Part shown: piece after piece, positions 1 through 10,517 of the stretch
Numbering within the stretch: position 1 is the first letter of the stretch
Layout: every line of letters begins with the position of its first letter
Assembly: GCA_028706735.1 (NCBI GenBank)
Contig: JAQTVS010000072.1
Coordinates: 1-10,517 of the forward strand
Direction of reading: 5' to 3'
Source of the DNA: Thiomonas sp.
GTDB taxonomy: Bacteria > Pseudomonadota > Gammaproteobacteria > Burkholderiales > Burkholderiaceae_C
Length of the DNA: 10,517 bases
Notes under the pieces: model-generated
The model's database searches: none
What the model was told of the DNA's origin: nothing
The model's input: the letters and a program-made list of their open reading frames with translations, nothing else
Program-made: the position numbers and the translations under genes

Positions 1-131
1 TGCACATTGCAGCCGATGCGGTGGAGTTGGGCGGACAGCTCTTCGCCGTCCTGGTCCTGTGGGTGGATCACGACCACCTGGAGCGACCGAATCTGTCGCA
101 GGACCGAAGCGTGTTCGGGTACGCGCATCAT
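1..131 (-). CDS. amiR: AmiR-like ANTAR antiterminator, N-terminal fragment
   Basis: Only the first 43 codons are in the window; the gene continues past its left edge. The start is the first of two adjacent ATGs (131 and 128 on the minus strand), preceded by GGAGG at 143-139 with 7-nt spacing. It overlaps the amiC stop, so the two genes are translationally coupled. Residues such as LRQIRSLQVVVIHP and LHRIGCNV align by eye with the start of Pseudomonas aeruginosa AmiR, in its degenerate receiver-like domain. The RNA-binding ANTAR domain would lie C-terminally, outside the window. Family knowledge: AmiR is held inactive by AmiC; when AmiC binds an amide, AmiR is freed to bind leader RNA and prevent termination. 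The likely target here is the double hairpin at 1622-1667. The N-terminal match plus the amiC overlap make the call secure, but the ANTAR domain itself is not visible. Confidence 0.9.
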   Translation of the reverse strand, partial: MMRVPEHASVLRQIRSLQVVVIHPQDQDGEELSAQLHRIGCNV

Positions 132-1303
132 TCCCGGTCCTCCGATCCCTGCATATTCTTGCCCACTGTGCCCAGCCAGTCCGGCGTCGAGTGGGAAACC
201 ACGTAAGGGTCGGCTTTTGCGCGCTCAGGCGCGCTGACCAGAATGTCGAACTGGCCGTGCGCATTGGCCCGACCGATCCGCGGCTGAAGGTAGGTGTGGT
301 GGTTGTGCTCGTCGATGCGGACGCGGCCCTGAGGAGCGTCGTACTCAAGGCCTGGAAGAACGCGGAGCAGGTGCTCCGGATCGTCGCTTCCGACGCGCCG
401 GATGGCGTCGGCGAGCATGTGCATTTGGAAATATGCCGCCTCCCAGCACATATTGGTGACAAGCTGCTCGCCGAAGCGCTCGCGATAGCGTGCGATGGCA
501 TGCCTGTTCTCGGGTGTATCGACAGACTGAAAGTAGGCGGCGCAGGTGATGTGGCCTTCCGCCAGGTCGGCGCCCATGATTGCGATCTCCGCTTCGCTGG
601 TCATGTGGCTGGCGATGGGCACCGCGTAGGGGTCGAGTCCCACGGTCGCGAATGCGCGATGCAGGAGCGTGATGCCCTCGCCGACCACGGTCGAGAAGAT
701 GAAGTCCGGCATGGCGCTCTTGATCCTCCGGGCCACGTCGAGATAACTCTCCCAGGTCGCGTCGAGCGGAAGATAGGTTTCCGAGATCTTCTCGCCGCCG
801 CGCTCGAGAATGAGATCGCTCATGACACGGTTGGACTCGTATGGGCAGATGTAGTCCGAGCCGACCATCCACACGCGCGAGCCAAAGTTCGAGAGCATGA
901 ATCCCGCAAGGGGAAGTGAATTCTGGTTCGGCGCAGCACCCGCGTAAATCACGTTTCTGCTGTACTCGAAACCCTCATAGGGTGTGGCGTAGAACAGCAG
1001 GGCGTTATGCCGCTCGACGATTGGAATCACCGCCTTGCGGGTACTGGACATGTAGCAGCCGAAGAGGAGGCGCACGTCGTGTTCAAGGATGAGTTGCTCG
1101 GCGAGGCCCGCGTAGCGGCGTGGATTGCTTTCGGGATTCAGGCAAACCAGTTCAATCTCGCGACCCAGAACGCCGCCGTCGCGATTCACCTCCTCTGCCG
1201 CCATGATCACCGCACGCTGCTGCGTCTCCTCGACGGTCGAGGTCACGCCGGTGGTGGAATAGAGAACGCCGATCTTGATGGGGCCGTCTTTGGTGTGTGC
1301 CAT
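128..1303 (-). CDS. amiC: AmiC-like cytoplasmic amide sensor (negative regulator of AmiR)
   Basis: Encodes 391 aa, close to the 385 aa of P. aeruginosa AmiC, with the type I periplasmic-binding fold but no signal peptide. Family role: ligand-free AmiC sequesters AmiR, and short amides release it. Recognisable blocks are KIGVLYSTTGVTS (res 10-22), GCYMSSTRKAVIPIVER (82-98), YATPYEGFEYS (105-115), GAAPNQNS (122-129) and GSDYICPYESN (148-158). The first Tyr and Ser of GCYMS, and the Thr and Pro of the ATPYEG block, correspond to ligand-pocket positions of PaAmiC. The aromatic residue I place at Tyr152 of PaAmiC is Cys153 here. The start at 1303 is chosen by alignment to PaAmiC; no clear Shine-Dalgarno precedes it. 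The open frame continues far upstream (to 1678) only because no stop interrupts it, and it crosses the regulatory region. It is divergent from the transporter operon and overlaps amiR by 4 nt. Confidence 0.93.
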   Translation of the reverse strand: MAHTKDGPIKIGVLYSTTGVTSTVEETQQRAVIMAAEEVNRDGGVLGREIELVCLNPESNPRRYAGLAEQLILEHDVRLLFGCYMSSTRKAVIPIVERHNALLFYATPYEGFEYSRNVIYAGAAPNQNSLPLAGFMLSNFGSRVWMVGSDYICPYESNRVMSDLILERGGEKISETYLPLDATWESYLDVARRIKSAMPDFIFSTVVGEGITLLHRAFATVGLDPYAVPIASHMTSEAEIAIMGADLAEGHITCAAYFQSVDTPENRHAIARYRERFGEQLVTNMCWEAAYFQMHMLADAIRRVGSDDPEHLLRVLPGLEYDAPQGRVRIDEHNHHTYLQPRIGRANAHGQFDILVSAPERAKADPYVVSHSTPDWLGTVGKNMQGSEDRE

Positions 1304-1620: not shown

Positions 1621-1667
1621 TCGCTCCTGACAAAGTCGTCTCGAGCGGCACCGGCCATAGAAGCCCG
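1621..1667 (+). promoter_or_regulatory. ANTAR-target double hairpin (antiterminator) in the urtA leader
   Basis: P1 (1622-1647) has a 5-bp lower stem (CGCTC/GAGCG), a 2x2 mismatch, and a 3-bp upper stem (GAC/GTC) closed by the hexaloop AAAGTC. After a 4-nt linker, P2 (1652-1667) pairs CGG with CCG around one C-C mismatch, closed by a C-G pair and the hexaloop ATAGAA. Both loops have A at position 1 and G at position 4, the signature of RNA targets of ANTAR proteins such as NasR and EutV. The 3' side of P2 (1663-1667) is part of the 5' arm of the terminator, so the two structures exclude each other. AmiR, encoded divergently next door, is the obvious ligand. P2 is a weak stem and should need protein to form. 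The fold was worked out by hand. Confidence 0.76.
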
Positions 1668-1710
1668 AAAACCAGCACGCCTGGTTTCGGGCTTTTTTTA
1701 TTTGTTTTTT
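1661..1710 (+). terminator. Intrinsic terminator in the urtA leader (regulated attenuator)
   Basis: Arms 1661-1675 and 1681-1694 form 14 base pairs with a single bulged A (1668) and the loop CACGC. They are followed by a T-rich tract of TTTTTTTATTTGTTTTTT (1693-1710). The terminator lies upstream of urtA in the sense direction, between promoter and gene, so it would block expression unless overridden. No gene ends just before it on the plus strand, which argues for attenuation rather than ordinary end-of-operon termination. Confidence 0.88.
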
Positions 1711-2983: not shown

Positions 2984-3002
2984 TTTCACATGCCCGGCCT
3001 GA

Positions 3003-3027
3003 GCAGCCCGTTCACTCCGCGGGCTGC
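3003..3027 (+). other. Intercistronic stem-loop between urtA and urtB
   Basis: GCAGCCCG (3003-3010) and CGGGCTGC (3020-3027) form a perfect 8-bp stem with a 9-nt loop in the 81-bp gap after urtA. There is no T-tract, so it is probably not an intrinsic terminator. Such hairpins often protect the 3' end of binding-protein mRNA and so raise its level above that of the permeases. That role is inferred. Confidence 0.55.
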
Positions 3028-3064
3028 ACGTGGCGATGCTGTCGATATGTTCACGGAAGTCTTC

Positions 3065-4705
3065 ATGATGGATTGGAAACGGTTGTTGCATTGGGCCGGG
3101 TTGGCCGGCATGGCGCTCTGCCTGTGCGCCATGGGCGGCCAGGCCGTGTTCGCCGCCGGACAAGCCGAACCGCTGCGCGCAACCGCAGTTCAGTCGTTCT
3201 GCGCGGAAGGTGACCATCCAGACGCGCTTGCCAAGCTGGTCGGCCTGGGCATCCAGGGCGACCCGGCGAATCGCGCCTGGGCGAACACGGTTGTGCTGGC
3301 AATCCGCGACGGGGAGTTGATCTGCACGCCGCGTGGCGGTGCGGTGATCTCCCGAAAAGGGCGCGACCTCGACGCAGTGACACTTGCGCCAGCGCAGGTG
3401 ACGCCCAGCGGAACGCCCTACGTTCCGACCATCGTGATGATGCGCAGGCTTGCAGTGGCCACGGCCGAGATGGATCTGTTCAGCGAGCATCTGGATTTGC
3501 GCGAAAAGGCCGCAGCCCAGGTCAGCAAGTTCTTCATGCTGCTCGACCCGGACATCCTGCGGCAGGCGATCCAGCGCCAGGGTGATGCCGATATCAATGC
3601 CGCGCTCGAACTCGCCATGGCCAAGCGCGGCTTGTATTCCAGCGACAAGAAGGAGCAACTGGCGGCCATCGAGGCGCTCGGCGATGCTCCCAGCGAAAGC
3701 TCGCGCACGCTGCTGACCGATTACCTCGCGAACGACAAGGTCCGCGCAGAGCCGCAACTCGCCAAGGCGGCCGAAGTGGCCTTGCACAGCATCGATCAGC
3801 GGCTATCCATCGGGAAGGCGCTGTCCGTCCTGTTCAGCGGACTGAGCTATGCGGGGATTCTCCTGCTCACCGCCATCGGCCTGTCGATCATCTTTGGCTT
3901 GATGGGCGTCATCAATCTGGCGCACGGCGAATTCATCATGCTCGGTGCCTATGCGACCTATCTGGTCGAGCACACCATGCGCGTGTATGCCCCCAGCATG
4001 TTCGATGCCTATATCTTTGTCGCGATCCCGGTGGCCTTCGTGTCCTGCGGGTTGTTCGGCGTGCTGCTCGAATTCCTGGTGATCCGTTTTCTCTATCGCA
4101 GGCCGCTCGAGACGTTGCTGGCGACATGGGCCGTGAGCATCGCCATCATCAAACTGGTTCAGCTCGTGTTCGGATCCCAGAACGTCGAGTTCATCACCCC
4201 GTCCTTCCTGAATGGCGGTGCGCAGGTGATCGGCGGATTTTTTGTGACCTACAACAGGCTGTTCGCCATCGCGTTCTCGCTCCTTGTCTTCCTGGCGACC
4301 TTCGCGGTGATCCGGTCGACACGCATCGGCCTTCTGATGCGCGCCACCACGCAAAACAGGGACATGGCGAAATGCCTGGGCGTACCCGCTCAGCGGATCG
4401 ACAGACTTGCCTTTGCCTTGGGCGCGGGCCTTGCCGGACTGGCGGGCGTGGTGTTGACACAGATCGCCTCGGTGAACCCATTCATGGGCGCCGGCTTTGT
4501 CATCGATGCATTCATGGTCGTGGTGCTCGGGGGCGCCGGCAGCCTGCTGGGCACGGCGGTTTCATCTCTGGCGCTTGGTGAGATCAACCAGTTCATCGAG
4601 CCCTTCTACGGGGCGGTTGCGGCCAAGGTCGCCGTGCTGCTCATCATCGTCCTGATCATCCAGAAGCGCCCCAACGGGCTCTTCACGGTGAAGACGCGCG
4701 GCTGA
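3065..4705 (+). CDS. urtB: Urea/amide ABC transporter permease UrtB
   Basis: Encodes 546 aa from ATG 3065, chosen because GGAAG (3055-3059) lies 5 nt upstream and a signal peptide follows (MMDWKRLLHW, then a hydrophobic run to VFA-AG near residue 30). ATG 3068 is equally possible; ATGs at 2990 and 3047 are less likely. Residues about 31-250 form a soluble, presumably periplasmic domain typical of UrtB and absent from ordinary LivH permeases. The membrane domain starts near residue 255 and carries the family motif GLMGVINLAHGEFIMLGAY (about 278-296), then several hydrophobic helices and a C-terminal GGAGSLLGT loop that should contact the ATPases. It would pair with UrtC to form the inner-membrane channel for the ligand delivered by UrtA. 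Confidence 0.92.
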   Translation: MMDWKRLLHWAGLAGMALCLCAMGGQAVFAAGQAEPLRATAVQSFCAEGDHPDALAKLVGLGIQGDPANRAWANTVVLAIRDGELICTPRGGAVISRKGRDLDAVTLAPAQVTPSGTPYVPTIVMMRRLAVATAEMDLFSEHLDLREKAAAQVSKFFMLLDPDILRQAIQRQGDADINAALELAMAKRGLYSSDKKEQLAAIEALGDAPSESSRTLLTDYLANDKVRAEPQLAKAAEVALHSIDQRLSIGKALSVLFSGLSYAGILLLTAIGLSIIFGLMGVINLAHGEFIMLGAYATYLVEHTMRVYAPSMFDAYIFVAIPVAFVSCGLFGVLLEFLVIRFLYRRPLETLLATWAVSIAIIKLVQLVFGSQNVEFITPSFLNGGAQVIGGFFVTYNRLFAIAFSLLVFLATFAVIRSTRIGLLMRATTQNRDMAKCLGVPAQRIDRLAFALGAGLAGLAGVVLTQIASVNPFMGAGFVIDAFMVVVLGGAGSLLGTAVSSLALGEINQFIEPFYGAVAAKVAVLLIIVLIIQKRPNGLFTVKTRG

Positions 4706-4732: not shown

Positions 4733-5812
4733 ATGTTGATGAAGAAACGTCTTGAGCAAAAAGTCGAATTCGGATTTGCGGCGCTGATTGTCATGCTGGC
4801 GGTCTACATGCCGGTTTCCCACTACCTGTTCCCGCAGGGAAGCGTCTTTTCCCTGTCTCTGTTCAGCATCAATTTGATCGGACAGATCATGAGCTTCGCC
4901 CTGCTCGCACTGGCTCTCGACCTCGTCTGGGGAATGGCCGGAATGCTGAGCCTCGGGCACGGCATCTTCTTCGGCATCGGCGGGTACATGATGGGCATGT
5001 ATCTGCTGAATGTCTCCTTCGCGCAAACCCATGTCTTGCCCGATTTCATGCAGTACATGGGGTGGACCGACTTTCCGCCGCTTTGGCACCTCCTGTCCGG
5101 ATTCGGCGTCACGCTGGTGCTGTGCGTGCTGTTCGTGATCATGGTCGCGACGCTGTTCGGCATCGTCACGTTCAAGTCGCGTATCAACGGTGTCTATTTT
5201 TCCATCATCACCCAGGCACTGACCTATGCGTTGATGTTGCTGCTGTTCATCAACGATGTCGGTCTGGGCGGCAACAACGGCTTGACGGGTTTCACACGCA
5301 TCCTGGACTTTCCGCTGTCCAGTGTCTCGACGCAGGTCGGTCTCGCTGTCGTCGCTTGCCTGGTCCTTGCCGCCGCCTACCTGCTCTTGCGTTTCCTGGC
5401 CGGGTCGGGGCTGGGGCGGGCGCTGGTCGCCATTCGCGACGATGAGGCGCGCATGCGCTTCCTTGGCTACAAGACGCACGTGATCAAGCTTCTGGCTTGG
5501 GGACTTTCCGCCGTGCTGGCAGCCCTGGCGGGAATGCTCTACGTCCCGCAGGTCGGTATCGTGAATCCCACGATCGTGTCGCCGAGCCTGTCGATCGAAA
5601 TCGCGGTGTGGGTCGCCATCGGCGGTCGCGGCTCGCTGATCGGCGCCATCGTCGGCGCGATCCTCGTCAACGGACTGAAGTTCTGGCTGACCGCCGCAGC
5701 GCCCAGCGTCTGGCCTTTCATCCTTGCCGGCGTCACGCTGGTGATCACGATCTATATGGGCCGTGGTCTTTGGGGTGAGGCGAAAGGGACGCTGACGCGC
5801 ATGGTGCGCTGA
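4733..5812 (+). CDS. urtC: Urea/amide ABC transporter permease UrtC
   Basis: Encodes 359 aa, a LivM/UrtC-type permease with about ten hydrophobic stretches. The diagnostic segment is DLVWGMAGMLSLGHGIFFG (from about residue 62). The C-terminal cytoplasmic loop contains VWVAIGGRGSLIGAIVGA, the EAA-like region that docks on the ATPases. The gene begins 27 bp after urtB. ATG 4733 has GGAG 11 nt upstream; ATG 4739, in the same frame, has TAGG 8 nt upstream and is nearly as good, so the N-terminus is uncertain by two residues. It is the heterodimer partner of UrtB in the inner membrane. Confidence 0.92.
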   Translation: MLMKKRLEQKVEFGFAALIVMLAVYMPVSHYLFPQGSVFSLSLFSINLIGQIMSFALLALALDLVWGMAGMLSLGHGIFFGIGGYMMGMYLLNVSFAQTHVLPDFMQYMGWTDFPPLWHLLSGFGVTLVLCVLFVIMVATLFGIVTFKSRINGVYFSIITQALTYALMLLLFINDVGLGGNNGLTGFTRILDFPLSSVSTQVGLAVVACLVLAAAYLLLRFLAGSGLGRALVAIRDDEARMRFLGYKTHVIKLLAWGLSAVLAALAGMLYVPQVGIVNPTIVSPSLSIEIAVWVAIGGRGSLIGAIVGAILVNGLKFWLTAAAPSVWPFILAGVTLVITIYMGRGLWGEAKGTLTRMVR

Positions 5813-5856
5813 CCGGCGCAAAGACCAGAAACACCGACCGAGCACGGCAACGATTG

Positions 5857-6606
5857 ATGATGAAACAACAAACCGCAATTTACGTCGATGGCCTGCACGT
5901 CAACTTCTCCGGATTCGCGGCCATCACGAACCTGACGATGGAGATTCGCTACGGCGAGGTCCGCGCCATCATTGGTCCGAATGGCGCCGGAAAGACGACC
6001 TTGCTTGACGTCATCACCGGAAAAACGCGGCCGACGAGTGGACAGGTCTTTCTCGACAAGACGATCGATCTTTCGCGGCATGACGAGGCTTCCATCTCCC
6101 GCTACGGCATCAGCAGGAAATTTCAGAAGCCCAGCATCTTCGACGCGCTGAGTATCGAGCAGAACCTCGAACTCGCCATACGCCGTGGGCGGGGCTATCT
6201 GGACATGCTGCGGTCGAAGCTGAGCGGCGACCAGCGCAGGCAGATCGTCGAAGTGACGGACTTGATCGGTCTTGCGGAGACCCCGAGCCAACCGGCCGGC
6301 ACGCTGTCCCACGGACAAAAGCAGTGGCTGGAAATCGGCATGATGCTGGTGGCCAATCCGCAGGTGCTTCTTCTCGACGAACCCGTGGCGGGCATGAGCG
6401 ACCACGAGACGCAACGCACTGCCGAACTCATCGCACGGCTGAAGTCGCCGGAACGTGCGGTAGTGGTAATCGAACACGACATGGATTTCGTCGGCCAGAT
6501 CGCCGACCTGGTCACCGTGCTGCACGAAGGCAGCGTTCTCAGCGAGGGCGAGATGAACAAGATCCGCAACGATCCCCGCGTCATTCAAGTGTATTTGGGG
6601 CGCTGA
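5857..6606 (+). CDS. urtD: Urea/amide ABC transporter ATP-binding protein UrtD
   Basis: Encodes 249 aa, a LivG/UrtD-class ATPase. Visible motifs: Walker A GPNGAGKT (40-47), Q-loop Gln90 in SRKFQKPSIF, signature LSHGQKQWLEIGMML (from 150; His replaces the usual second Gly-type residue, as is common in UrtD), Walker B VLLLDEP (170-176) and switch His207 in VIEHDMD. Two adjacent ATGs (5857, 5860) could serve as the start; a TTG just before them is ignored. No strong Shine-Dalgarno is seen in the 44-bp gap after urtC. It acts at the cytoplasmic face, hydrolysing ATP together with UrtE to drive uptake. Confidence 0.93.
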   Translation: MMKQQTAIYVDGLHVNFSGFAAITNLTMEIRYGEVRAIIGPNGAGKTTLLDVITGKTRPTSGQVFLDKTIDLSRHDEASISRYGISRKFQKPSIFDALSIEQNLELAIRRGRGYLDMLRSKLSGDQRRQIVEVTDLIGLAETPSQPAGTLSHGQKQWLEIGMMLVANPQVLLLDEPVAGMSDHETQRTAELIARLKSPERAVVVIEHDMDFVGQIADLVTVLHEGSVLSEGEMNKIRNDPRVIQVYLGR

Positions 6607-6608
6607 TC

Positions 6609-7307
6609 ATGACGCTGCACATGCGGGGAATCAACCAGTACTACGGCAGCAGCCACACGCTGCGCGACGTCTCAGTTTCCGTGGGAGAGGGCGCCTGTAC
6701 CGTGGTGCTTGGGCGCAATGGGGTCGGCAAGACGACGCTGCTGAAGTGCCTCATGGGCCTGCTGCCCATCCAGGGCGGCGAGATCATGCTCGGTGGCCGG
6801 CGGCTCTCCGATCTTCCAACGCACCAGCGCGTGGTGGCCGGTCTCGGCTATGTGCCGCAGGGGCGTGACATCTTTCCGGAACTTTCAGTCGAGGAGAACC
6901 TGAAGGTCGGTGCCTATGGCGGCGAAAAGAGTGCAAAGGCGCGCTTCGGGTTTTCGGACGTCTTCCAGATCTTTCCGGTCTTGAAGCAGATGAAAGGCCG
7001 GCTGGCAGGCAATCTCTCAGGCGGACAGCAACAGCAGTTGGCCATCGGACGGGCGCTGCTGACAAATCCGTCGATCCTGGTTCTCGACGAGCCGACCGAA
7101 GGCATCCAGCCCTCGATCGTCCAGGAAATCGAGGGAGTGATCAAGTCGCTCAAGGGCGAGCTTTCGATTCTGCTCGTCGAGCAATATTTCGATTTTGCGC
7201 AATCGGTCGCGGACGATTATGTCGTTTTGGTTCGCGGCCAAGTCGTCGCGTCTGGAAAGGGGGGCGACATGGACCAGGACAACGTACGAAGTCTGATTGT
7301 GGTCTGA
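6609..7307 (+). CDS. urtE: Urea/amide ABC transporter ATP-binding protein UrtE
   Basis: Encodes 232 aa, a LivF/UrtE-class ATPase of normal length. The ATG at 6609 follows the urtD stop by 2 nt, and GGGG at 6597-6600 inside urtD can act as its ribosome binding site, so the two are translationally coupled. Motifs: Walker A GRNGVGKT (35-42), Q-loop Gln84 in YVPQGRDIFP, signature LSGGQQQQLAIGRAL (136-150) and Walker B ILVLDEP (156-162). The switch position reads LLVEQYFDFA, with Gln192 in place of His, which is normal for LivF/UrtE proteins. A longer open frame starting at 6324 lies inside urtD and is not the gene. This is the last gene of the transporter set; 71 bp separate it from the hydrolase. 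Confidence 0.93.
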   Translation: MTLHMRGINQYYGSSHTLRDVSVSVGEGACTVVLGRNGVGKTTLLKCLMGLLPIQGGEIMLGGRRLSDLPTHQRVVAGLGYVPQGRDIFPELSVEENLKVGAYGGEKSAKARFGFSDVFQIFPVLKQMKGRLAGNLSGGQQQQLAIGRALLTNPSILVLDEPTEGIQPSIVQEIEGVIKSLKGELSILLVEQYFDFAQSVADDYVVLVRGQVVASGKGGDMDQDNVRSLIVV

Positions 7308-7356: not shown

Positions 7357-7378
7357 TGATATTTAATTGGGAGTGAAA

Positions 7379-8371
7379 ATGAGTTGGCTCGACGATTCAA
7401 TCATGTATACACGCGGACTCGCAGGTGGAAAACTGGGGAAGACGCATGAGCTTACCGAGGCGAGGCAAGGAAAATTCCATTACACGATTGGTCCGTATTC
7501 GGACCCTGTCATGGAAATCAAGCCCGGAGATCGAGTTGTCGTTGAAACACGTGACGCATTCGAGGGGAAGATCAAGACGGAACAAGATCTGCCGAGTCAG
7601 AAATTACAGGTTCCTTTCCTGAACCCGCAGAACGGACCGATCATGATCGCCGGAGCCGAAAAGGGCGATGTCGTCGCCATCCACATCGAATCAATCAAGC
7701 CGCGCGGCGATAACCCGCGTGGAACATGCTGCCTGATTCCACGATTCGGCGCACTGACCGGTACGGAGTACACGGCGATGCTGAACGAACCCCTGCCGGA
7801 GATCACCCGCAAGATCGACCTCGACGAAGAGGGCGTTTATTGGAGCAAGCGCGTGATGCTTCCGTACCGGCCGCACATCGGTACGCTTAGCCTGTCTCCG
7901 GAAATCGATTCCATCAACTCGCTGACTCCAGATAATCATGGCGGAAATATGGATGTGCCCGATATGGGGCCCGGGAGCATTACCTATTTGCCTGTTCGTT
8001 CAGCCGGTGCGCGGCTATTCATCGGAGACGCACATGCTTGTCAAGGCGATGGTGAGGTCTGCGGAACCGCCGTCGAGTTTGCAAGCACGACGACCATCCA
8101 TGTCGAGTTGATCAAGAACTGGGATATCGCTTGGCCTCGCCTGGAGACCGACCAGTTGCTGATGGCGATCGGCAGCGCCAGACCGCTCGAGGATGCCACG
8201 CGTATCGCCTATTACGAATTGGTGCGCTGGATGGAAAACGAATATGGATTCGATCGCTGGGACGCTTACATGATGCTCAGTCAGTGCGGGCAGGTGCGTC
8301 TCGGTAATTTTGTCGATCCGAAATACACGGTGGGCGCCGCGATTCGGAAGATGTATCTGAAGAATATTTAA
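7379..8371 (+). CDS. Acetamidase/formamidase family amide hydrolase (FmdA/AmdA family)
   Basis: Encodes 330 aa from ATG 7379, with GGGAG (7369-7373) 5 nt upstream; the TTG at 7367 is rejected. Family enzymes hydrolyse formamide, acetamide or related short amides to ammonia and the acid in the cytoplasm. Visible family landmarks: MEIKPGDRVVVET (45-57), GPIMIAGAEKGDVVAIHI (86-103), PHIGTLSLSP (165-174), DNHGGNMDVPD (185-195), GDAHACQGDGEVCGTAVE (216-233, the most diagnostic block) and a C-terminal helix region before VDPKYTVGA. It is nearer the short acetamidase-type subfamily (about 300-330 aa) than the roughly 400-aa FmdA of Methylophilus. Its position after the AmiCR-linked transporter suggests it acts on the imported compound. 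The exact substrate cannot be read from the sequence, and no separate promoter is seen in front of it. Confidence 0.9.
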   Translation: MSWLDDSIMYTRGLAGGKLGKTHELTEARQGKFHYTIGPYSDPVMEIKPGDRVVVETRDAFEGKIKTEQDLPSQKLQVPFLNPQNGPIMIAGAEKGDVVAIHIESIKPRGDNPRGTCCLIPRFGALTGTEYTAMLNEPLPEITRKIDLDEEGVYWSKRVMLPYRPHIGTLSLSPEIDSINSLTPDNHGGNMDVPDMGPGSITYLPVRSAGARLFIGDAHACQGDGEVCGTAVEFASTTTIHVELIKNWDIAWPRLETDQLLMAIGSARPLEDATRIAYYELVRWMENEYGFDRWDAYMMLSQCGQVRLGNFVDPKYTVGAAIRKMYLKNI

Positions 8372-8395: not shown

Positions 8396-9157
8396 ATGGA
8401 TCTGAATCTCAAGGGCCTGAAAGTCGTCGTGACCGGAGCGAGCAAGGGCATTGGCCGGTCGATCGCTGAGACATTCGCGCAAGAAGGGGCGAATGTCGCC
8501 ATTTGCGCGCGTGACCGCGACGGGATTGAACGGGCCGTTGCCGAGCTGAAGAAATATGGTGCCGACGTGCTCGGTGGCGTCGTCGATGTTTCGAGCCGAG
8601 ACACCTTGCAGGCCTGGGTCCGGGACGTCGCCGCACAGTGGGATGGCCTTGACATCGTCGTGGCGAATGTCAGTGCCCTCGCCATCGGACAGGATGAGCA
8701 ATCCTGGCGCAGCGAATTCGAGACCGACTTGATGGGAACGGTTCATCTGGTCGACGCTGCGATGCCGTTTCTCGAAAAAAGCAAGGCTGCGTCGATCGTG
8801 GCGATCTCCAGCGTGTCAGGTCGCGAAATTGATTTCGCAGCTGGGCCATATGGGACTTTCAAAGCGGCCATTGTTCATTATATTCAGGGCGTCGCTTTCC
8901 AGAATGCAGCCAAGGGTATTCGGGCGAATACGGTCTCACCCGGAAATATCTATTTTGAGGGCGGTGTGTGGGAGCACATCGAGAAAAATAATCCAGGCCT
9001 CTATGCCGAGGCGATGGCACTTAATCCGACCGGAAGAATGGGCCGCCCTGATGAAATTGGCCGGGCGGTGGCATTTATTTCCAGTCCTGTCGCCAGTTTT
9101 ATTAGCGGGACGAACTTGGTGGTTGACGGAGCTTTGACGCGAGGTGTGCAATTTTAG
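8396..9157 (+). CDS. Short-chain dehydrogenase/reductase (classical SDR)
   Basis: Encodes 253 aa from ATG 8396, with AAGGG (8384-8388) 7 nt upstream. It starts 24 bp after the amidase stop, so it is probably co-transcribed. Classical SDR features: cofactor motif TGASKGIG (13-20), an Asp-Val pair in GGVVDVSS (61-67), catalytic Ser139 in ISSVSG, Tyr152 and Lys156 in PYGTFK, and a C-terminal SGTNLVVDGALTRG. Ala-Arg-Asp after the second strand (CARD, 37-40) favours NADP(H). The usual NNAG structural motif reads ANVSA (90-94), a variant of some uncharacterised FabG-like proteins. Substrate is unknown; fatty-acid reduction is unlikely in this context, and oxidation or reduction of a carbonyl made from the amide or of its side chain is possible. 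Confidence 0.9.
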   Translation: MDLNLKGLKVVVTGASKGIGRSIAETFAQEGANVAICARDRDGIERAVAELKKYGADVLGGVVDVSSRDTLQAWVRDVAAQWDGLDIVVANVSALAIGQDEQSWRSEFETDLMGTVHLVDAAMPFLEKSKAASIVAISSVSGREIDFAAGPYGTFKAAIVHYIQGVAFQNAAKGIRANTVSPGNIYFEGGVWEHIEKNNPGLYAEAMALNPTGRMGRPDEIGRAVAFISSPVASFISGTNLVVDGALTRGVQF

Positions 9158-9265: not shown

Positions 9266-9388
9266 TGTAGAATTTAACGAAAAGGGTGAATAGGAATTCT
9301 GGGATTGCGTCTGGAAAATTGTTGTTCACACGGATCGATCGACGTTCCTTTTTTATTTTGCGGCATTTATGGTTGGGCATTTAAAAAT

Positions 9389-10171
9389 ATGAATATGCAA
9401 ACGCCAAAACTTTCTTTGCGGAATGTGAGCAAGAGCTTTCAAAGCAAGGGCCGAGAAATAAATGTGCTCGATAAACTGAGCTTCGATGTTTACGATCGGG
9501 ACTTTGTAAGCATTATTGGGCCTAGCGGATGCGGCAAGACGACAATATTCAACATCATTGCGGGACTGATGAAGCCCGACGAGGGTGAGATTCGCATGGA
9601 TGGAGAGGTTGCGACTGGCTTGCGTGGCAAGGTGGGGTACATGCTGCAGAAAGATCTATTGTTGCCATGGCGAACCGTGCTGCAGAACGTTGTGCTTGGT
9701 TTGGAACTGAGAGGTACGCCCCTGAAGGAGTGCAAGGACATCGCGATGGAATACATCTATACCTATGGATTGGCAGGGTTCGAGCACGCTTACCCCAAGG
9801 CGCTGTCGGGCGGGATGAAGCAGCGGGTTGCGTTGATCAGGACCTTGATTTATGACCCCCAGGTCATTTTGTTGGACGAACCATTTTCTGCTCTCGACTA
9901 CCAGACGAGACTATATCTGGAGGGGGTGCTGGTAGAGGCGGTGGAGACATTCAATAAAACCGTCATTCTTGTTACTCACGACATTGACGAGGCTGTCGCT
10001 CTCTCAAAGCGTGTGGTCGTGCTTGGCGCGAGGCCGGCATCAGTTAAATCTGTTCATGAAATCGATATCGGCCAACGCACTCCTATCGAAGCGCGGAGTG
10101 ACCCTAATTTTTCCGGTTATTTCCATGCTCTCTGCGCCGAGCTGGAAATTCAGACGAAAGTCGGGAGCTGA
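9389..10171 (+). CDS. NitT/TauT-family ABC transporter ATP-binding protein
   Basis: Encodes 260 aa from ATG 9389 (an in-frame ATG follows at 9395), matching the roughly 255-260 aa of SsuB/TauB/NrtD proteins. The longer frame from TTG 9305 would add a Cys-rich, non-homologous stretch and is rejected. No strong Shine-Dalgarno is evident, so the start is moderately certain. Motifs: Walker A GPSGCGKT (44-51), Q-loop Gln87 followed by the family-typical LLPWRTVLQN, signature LSGGMKQRVAL (139-149), Walker B VILLDEP (159-165) followed by FSALD, and switch His197 in VTHDIDEA. The family imports nitrate, sulfonates, taurine, aliphatic nitrogen compounds or thiamine precursors. A possible Ntr-type promoter upstream favours a nitrogen-containing substrate. 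The substrate-binding protein is not in the window. Confidence 0.92.
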   Translation: MNMQTPKLSLRNVSKSFQSKGREINVLDKLSFDVYDRDFVSIIGPSGCGKTTIFNIIAGLMKPDEGEIRMDGEVATGLRGKVGYMLQKDLLLPWRTVLQNVVLGLELRGTPLKECKDIAMEYIYTYGLAGFEHAYPKALSGGMKQRVALIRTLIYDPQVILLDEPFSALDYQTRLYLEGVLVEAVETFNKTVILVTHDIDEAVALSKRVVVLGARPASVKSVHEIDIGQRTPIEARSDPNFSGYFHALCAELEIQTKVGS

Positions 10172-10173
10172 CG

Positions 10174-10517
10174 ATGGACGAAATCATGGGCAATAAAGTA
10201 CTGAATACTGAAAAAAAGAAGGATACGCCTTTTAAATTAAAACGTAAGCTCCCAATCAAGGCGTCAATTATCACGGCATTGGTGCAACTGAGTATCGTTG
10301 GAGGCGTTTTGGCTGTATGGCAATGGGGTGTTCAGGTTGGAATTATTTCTAATTTTTTAGTGGGATCTCCAGCAGGAATTTTCGAAAAGATGTGGCAAGT
10401 GATGCTGGATGGTTCTCTTTGGACGGACACCAAGGCGACCCTTCTCGAGGCGATTATTGGCTTCCTGATTGGCAGTCTCGTTGGGTCGGTTGTCGGCCTG
10501 TCATTGTGGTATTCACC
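10174..10517 (+). CDS. NitT/TauT-family ABC transporter permease, N-terminal part
   Basis: The first 114 codons are present and the frame is open to the right edge of the window. ATG 10174 is 2 nt after the ATPase stop, with GGGAG (10163-10167) 6 nt upstream, so the pair is translationally coupled; ATG 10186 is an alternative. A Lys-rich cytoplasmic N-terminus is followed by a hydrophobic helix (around residues 33-50), then LVGSPAGIFEKMW and DTKATLLEAIIGFLIGS, which are typical of SsuC/TauC permeases at the start of the transmembrane domain. It would dimerise in the inner membrane and dock with the preceding ATPase. Codon use is clearly more AT-rich than in the urt genes. The substrate cannot be deduced. 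Confidence 0.9.
   Translation, partial: MDEIMGNKVLNTEKKKDTPFKLKRKLPIKASIITALVQLSIVGGVLAVWQWGVQVGIISNFLVGSPAGIFEKMWQVMLDGSLWTDTKATLLEAIIGFLIGSLVGSVVGLSLWYS

Follow-up and report, generated by a model that had tools for sequence, protein, structure and literature searches.

The leader RNA of a urt-type ABC transporter operon is very probably an antitermination switch worked by the amide sensor AmiC and the ANTAR regulator AmiR, a reading that includes inferred AmiR binding and inferred antitermination. Directly supported are the elements of the RNA, the fact that these are conserved and covary, a tight link with AmiC and AmiR, and the covariation of one loop base with one AmiR residue. As far as sequence comparison goes, this last match suggests a protein-RNA recognition code that has been switched repeatedly.

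Genes, promoter and RNA of the leader region

The window, i.e., the whole stretch of DNA that was analysed (10,517 bases), is the entire contig C119 of a 2.93 Mb assembly in 425 contigs. The leader precedes urtABCDE, with an FmdA-family gene after them, and is divergent from amiC-amiR. On the minus strand, the contig end cuts amiR (1-131) and leaves the first 43 residues of the protein, the start of AmiR_N. In a profile search, this fragment scored 34.1 bits with AmiR_N (PF21332; cut-off 27 bits) and covered model positions 1-27; it is 47-81% identical to the AmiR N-termini adjoining equivalent leaders in relatives. The gene overlaps that of an AmiC-like amide sensor (128-1303, minus strand; Peripla_BP_5, E 2.7e-134), which is 62-88% identical to the divergent AmiC of the 20 loci described below. 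An export signal is absent, as judged by eye, which fits a cytoplasmic binding-protein sensor beside amiR. The divergent ANTAR-type regulator of the original prediction was recovered as far as its AmiR_N start; the ANTAR domain is not in the window. Since the contig holds only 43 AmiR residues, this domain is seen in relatives only, and a full AmiR (AmiR_N plus ANTAR) divergent from the leader is encoded in all five relatives scanned. No contig of the assembly carries the missing part of AmiR with this domain, and the sole ANTAR match found lies elsewhere, in a NasT-like gene of contig C279.

The plus strand encodes a UrtA-like exported binding protein (1739-2983; TIGR03407, 415.6 bits, under the 492.75 cut-off), followed by the permeases UrtB (2990-4705; TIGR03409) and UrtC (4733-5812; TIGR03408) and the ATPases UrtD (5854-6606; TIGR03411) and UrtE (6606-7307; TIGR03410), each of these four over its cut-off. 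An acetamidase/formamidase-family enzyme (FmdA family) comes next at 7367-8371 (PF03069, E 6e-35); with the FmdA equivalog model its product scores just 75.2 bits, against a 500-bit cut-off. Both the transporter and the amidase-family gene expected downstream are thus present. A short-chain dehydrogenase gene (8396-9157, plus strand; PF13561) is probably co-transcribed with the operon, and such a gene is also found 3' of the FmdA-like gene in related operons, e.g., L002, L005, and L012. Farther 3', the stretch 9305-10515 encodes an ABC ATPase of the taurine/nitrate type and part of a frame that resembles a permease.

Between amiC and urtA, the plus strand carries a -24/-12 element at 1543-1557 (TGGCACGCCCCTTGC, no mismatches) reading TGGCACG-N4-TTGC, which fits the sigma-54 consensus. 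From this sigma-54-type element, transcription would start at about position 1569. A GGCA(C/T)-N5-TTGC element is found 5' of the hairpins in all 21 leaders aligned below. A palindrome at 1371-1387, TGCAC-N7-GTGCA, matches the NtrC consensus without mismatches; it was rejected as an NtrC-like site, being no better than chance at one mismatch (such a site, with 0 or 1 mismatch, turns up in 74 of 200 shuffles).

The leader itself occupies 1620-1699 and consists of a strong hairpin P1, a weak hairpin P2, and a strong terminator that shares the 3' arm of P2. P1 (1620-1649, plus strand) has the hexaloop AAAGUC at 1632-1637 and a 2x2 internal mismatch in its stem, with 1627-1628 opposite 1641-1642. 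P2 (1653-1665, plus strand) has the loop AUAGAA at 1657-1662 and pairs 1653, 1654, and 1656 with 1665, 1664, and 1663, leaving C1655 bulged. As had been claimed, both loops begin with A and have G as their fourth base (A1, G4). The linker between the hairpins is 3 nt; the proposed 4 nt are obtained only without the outermost P1 pair. ANTAR-target linkers are described as ranging from 2 to 25 nt (PMC8164766), and the 3 nt of the window fall inside this range. The intrinsic terminator (1663-1699, plus strand) pairs 1663-1675 with 1681-1692 and ends in the U7 tract 1693-1699, and its fold (z -4.68) bears out the strength ascribed to it. P2 and the terminator are mutually exclusive, as bases 1663-1665 are common to both; the overlap had been put at 1663-1667, whose last two bases could take part only through a mismatched extension.

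Predicted energies are about -15.9 kcal/mol for P1, -18.5 for the terminator, and -16.0 for P1 together with bulged P2. P2 thus brings almost no gain, and the minimum-energy fold of the leader contains the terminator and not P2. On this showing P2 would need help to form, in line with the ANTAR model. A 7-nt P2 loop, CAUAGAA (-2.8 kcal/mol), is favoured by the folding program over the bulged hexaloop. Compared with shuffles, the stability of P2 alone is not above chance (z -0.86, 49/200 as good). The fold of the 170-nt leader has z -3.43 and was equalled by none of 200 shuffles, so the folding proposed as a check came out in favour of a structured RNA. When the dual-hexaloop pattern is applied with stems of at least 3 bp, P1 fits and P2 fits only with C1655 bulged.

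Occurrence and covariation of the leader

The ortholog sample comprised 37 loci from one search with the UrtA-like protein. A divergent AmiC was present in 20 of them, with AmiR in view in 19 of those 20. Each of these 20 carries the complete set of promoter element, P1, P2, and terminator, and all 16 loci without AmiC are also without the leader (no model match better than E 0.18); the sequence of the 37th ends just upstream of urtA, which places it outside both counts. This distribution, 20/20 against 0/16, supports the AmiR-type antitermination reading that was originally put forward.

The 20 orthologs and the window gave 21 aligned leaders. Both-sided changes, sought as the compensatory changes that the original prediction called for, occur in 13 of the 24 pairs of P1 and terminator (7/12 and 6/12, respectively), and none of 500 shuffles reaches 13. 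Pairing of P2 is possible in all 21 rows, in L016 only through an inserted G that yields GGCC-hexaloop-GGCC; the leaders of Variovorax and Rhodoferax have no bulged C, and their P2 is GGC-hexaloop-GCC. These deletions and insertions favour a six-nt loop. In the 57 leaders of the larger set used below, P2 has standard pairs at its first three positions throughout, ignoring the bulged C where present, and the third has changed from G-C to A-U in eight. The second P1 pair from the loop is mismatched (C-C, C-U or U-C) in 20 of the 57. Closing pairs of P1 are described as important in work on EutV.

The two loops are conserved to different degrees. The P1 loop has A1 in 21/21 leaders (57/57 in the larger set) and G4 in 19/21, and the P2 loop has A1 in 21/21 and G4 in only 3/21, leaving 18 without it; in the larger set, P2 position 4 is G in 14/57. 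Conservation of A1 and G4 in both loops had been expected; it holds for A1 and for G4 of P1, and fails for G4 of P2. The loss in P2 is notable because EutV has been described as strictly requiring G4 in either loop. A lack of hexaloop conservation had been named as counting against the switch; since A1 and the length of the loops persist, and position 4 of P1 tracks the AmiR residue expected to read it, we take the loss to refine the predicted switch and not to refute it.

A model of the leader, R1, was built from the 21 leaders and run on 300 genomes of the order. At E <= 0.01 it matches 120 of them, including what look like generic terminators, so only the strongest matches were used. Seven matches have E < 1e-12. 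One is the window, itself among the seeds; the other six, the strongest outside this genome, all lie about 10 kb or less from an AmiR_N gene, and AmiR_N is over cut-off in just 20 of the 300 genomes. Among 20 regions around AmiR genes, 11 hold an R1 match below 1e-7, and two more have one just outside the stretch. An equivalent layout is found on plasmids, for example 5' of urtA in Caballeronia sp. SBC2 and, in Paraburkholderia aromaticivorans, 5' of a gene for an aliphatic amidase. The latter species also has, on pBN4 (L216, 3640-3737, minus strand), a second leader with P1 A4. It precedes a gene for a cytosine permease, which suggests that AmiR has a small regulon. Tandem leaders were seen in L160 (7173-7268 and 7655-7750, minus strand), with starts about 480 nt apart and at least 2.5 kb 5' of a urtA-like gene.

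No Rfam family reached its gathering score in the window, six relatives, or the contig with the NasT-like gene. The window is not a member of the RF03032 narK RNA family (19.0 bits; gathering score 43.2). The printed consensus of this family shows a GGCAC-N5-UUGC element and then GACAAAGACGUC, which can be compared with 1544-1642 of the window; narK RNA may combine a sigma-54 promoter with a P1 hairpin of the ANTAR type and not be an unstructured RNA. A home-made dual-hexaloop scanner, which gave 20 matches in 1.43 Mb (both strands), did not report the window leader; the miss was put down to the terminator bulge, and the scanner was not relied on.

Loop base 4 and AmiR residue 160

Position 4 of the P1 loop was compared with the AmiR residue aligned to Glu160 of EutV. 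According to the description of the EutV-RNA crystal, G4 makes the only base-specific contact and is stacked on Tyr164; the G4 of P2 receives hydrogen bonds from Arg142, Lys149, and Glu160 (PMC8934654). The same source describes G4 as obligatory for EutV in vivo and EutV binding as 60-fold weaker with E160A. The printed alignments of EutV, NasR, Rv1626, and P. aeruginosa AmiR all have Glu here (position by eye).

Among 64 AmiR-leader pairs, 44 combine G with Glu and 20 combine A with another residue (Ala 7, Lys 4, Arg 3, Gln 2, and Asp, Ile, Asn, and His 1 each), and no pair breaks the rule. Given what E160A costs EutV, the natural Ala160 AmiR proteins paired with A4 loops are notable. The pairs with Glu160 include those of L002, the nearest complete relative, and of L005, and the pairs with Gln or Lys160 include those of L012 and L216. 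The table grew from 35 G/Glu and 15 A/non-Glu in the first 50 pairs to 40 and 17 in 57, once loci from plasmids and additional genomes were included. The initial reading of the loops was by eye; a mechanical re-reading of 57 from the model alignment produced an identical table. For L216, the mechanical reading took the second leader, likewise A4, and model scores were weak for L219 (E 0.092) and L244 (E 0.14). The seven further pairs were read by eye and checked for presence only, with a model match in L249, L255, L256, and L257 and none in L248, L258, and L259. Position 4 of P2 does not follow residue 160, being A or T with Glu in 26/57. When 204 AmiR columns were scanned blind to structure, residue 160 alone predicted the base perfectly, and the runner-up reached 0.922.

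Shared ancestry alone, and not recognition, is an unlikely source of this match, and its case lies in the history of the two traits. Parsimony on an AmiR tree built without column 160 gives five changes per trait, and the tree has several very long branches. On well-supported branches, the 50-row set yields 4 independent pairs and the sets of 57 and 64 rows yield 3, a number that falls to 2 when the long row L194 is dropped; the sign test is not significant in any run (p 0.125, 0.25, 0.5), and with fewer than 6 pairs it cannot reach 0.05. Counted on all branches, the independent pairs are 5, and every pair goes in the same direction. Two distant loci kept outside the count, L247 (AmiR with 24% identity to the query; GCCAAC as its P1 loop, by eye) and L155 (25% identity; P1 without a G4 hexaloop, by eye), retain Glu and may be exceptions. 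Against ancestry, all five changes coincide, and the only perfect column is the residue that contacts G4 in the crystal, the one whose replacement so weakens EutV binding. With too few pairs for significance, the case for recognition rests on the coincident changes and on the blind scan recovering a residue known from structure.

Several other loci were kept outside the count. Distant L159, found late, agrees with the rule (P1 loop AGCGUC, Glu). L220 (P2 AAGGGU, Glu), L153 (nearest upstream loop GGCGUC, Glu), and L158 are ambiguous; the leader lies beyond the contig in L079 (Asp160) and L152 (Glu160); AmiR is cut in L017 and the window; and no leader was found in L154, L156, and L157. Fourteen loci in which amiR precedes the leader were kept apart (L067-L070, L073, L082, L142, L145-L150, and L207); L144 was included in the count, unlike its neighbours L145-L150. 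All 14 have U1 and G4 in the P2 loop, Thr in place of Met172, and Glu160, and their P1 position 4 is variable. They form one group and say little about causation. In L145, L147, L149, and L150, three consecutive hexaloop hairpins stand between amiR and a gene judged by eye to be nitrilase-like; here the P2 loop starts with U, not A, and the Met plug of AmiR is Thr.

Taken with these observations, we consider it fairly likely that AmiR and its leaders follow a switchable code in which Glu160 goes with G4 and other residues with A4, and which has passed through about five joint changes. Only P1 would need a readable base, and P2, whose stem and mostly its A1 persist but whose G4 is often missing, would serve as an antiterminator element and not as a second specific site.

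Proposed mechanism and known systems

The steps of promoter use, ligand, AmiR binding, and antitermination are inferred as follows. Transcription would begin near 1569 at the sigma-54-type promoter. With no inducer, AmiC would hold AmiR, the nascent RNA would form P1 and then the terminator, and RNA polymerase would stop before urtA. A short amide, possibly formamide or urea, would make AmiC release AmiR, as an amide is described to free AmiR from AmiC in the P. aeruginosa system (PMC3369931). The ANTAR dimer would then read the P1 hexaloop, with position 4 touched by the equivalent of EutV Glu160, and the weak P2 would be favoured. By capturing the 5' arm of the terminator, P2 would let RNA polymerase proceed into urtABCDE and the amidase-family gene.

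It is very unlikely that the leader is read instead by the NasT-like protein of the same genome, which would place the operon in a nitrate regulon. The gene on C279 is indeed the only ANTAR match in the assembly, a sigma-54-like element and A1/G4 hexaloops are seen by eye 3' of it too, and NasR and EutV are described as favouring identical A1/G4 loops (PMC7496416). Against this, the leader is found with AmiC and AmiR and not without them, and in every one of the 64 counted pairs the base at P1 position 4 agrees with the residue of AmiR. A constitutive terminator or promoter-proximal attenuator working without any ANTAR protein would suit the strong predicted terminator and a P2 that is weak alone, and is highly improbable given that P1 lies outside the terminator yet covaries, has A1 in its hexaloop in all 57 leaders counted, and tracks AmiR residue 160.

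At L001 of the same genome (1200-1520, minus strand), a NasT-like gene is followed by an apparent nitrate-type binding-protein gene, and the gap holds a sigma-54-like element and the hexaloop hairpins AACGGC and AAUGAU (both A1, G4; by eye). Two ANTAR systems with similar loops are thus present in one cell, and the code may help to separate AmiR and NasT leaders there.

ANTAR proteins are common bacterial RNA-binding regulators, and little is known of what determines the choice of loop by each. The question why there are two hairpins if the EutV dimer binds one at a time has been described as open (PMC8934654). Natural AmiR-leader pairs with matched changes at residue 160 and base 4 make both questions directly testable, and such pairs could help to predict what other ANTAR proteins bind. 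An account of how an entire operon for amide uptake and cleavage is switched is a further gain from the leader.

The dual hexaloop with A1 and G4 and an overlap of P2 with a terminator is described as a known ANTAR target (PMC3369931, Ramesh 2012). The leader type of the window is therefore already known, and the wider family holds variants for which no earlier description was found; a survey of the open literature, mostly by listing, found no report of covariation between ANTAR residues and loop bases. Ramesh 2012 describes ANTAR RNA matches 5' of urea transporters, which share motif and gene class with the window; in the available part of that source, neither an AmiC/AmiR link nor loop-residue covariation is named for them (PMC3369931). 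The operon amiE-amiC-amiR-ABC transporter of plasmid pKOS9W-1 likewise joins AmiC/AmiR to an ABC transporter, unlike the window one of a different class, and the accessible part of its report does not describe leader RNA analysis (PMC13209695). The NasR/NasT leaders (nasF and others) have two A1/G4 hexaloops overlapping a terminator, like the window, but respond to nitrate through another regulator architecture. In the eut leaders, the ANTAR domain of EutV is described as reading loop position 4 with a Glu160 contact (PMC8934654), as is proposed for AmiR leaders; EutV is, however, a phosphorylated response regulator that needs G4 in both loops, whereas AmiR leaders are often without G4 in P2 and some are without it in both loops. 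The AmiC-AmiR amidase leader of P. aeruginosa, as described, shares with the window the AmiC sensor, a regulator of AmiR_N plus ANTAR, and a dual hexaloop overlapping a terminator (PMC3369931). In contrast to that system, the regulators of the window are divergent, the urt-type ABC transporter genes come first, the enzyme is of the FmdA family, the promoter element is of the sigma-54 type, and 18 of the 21 orthologous leaders of this type do without G4 in P2.
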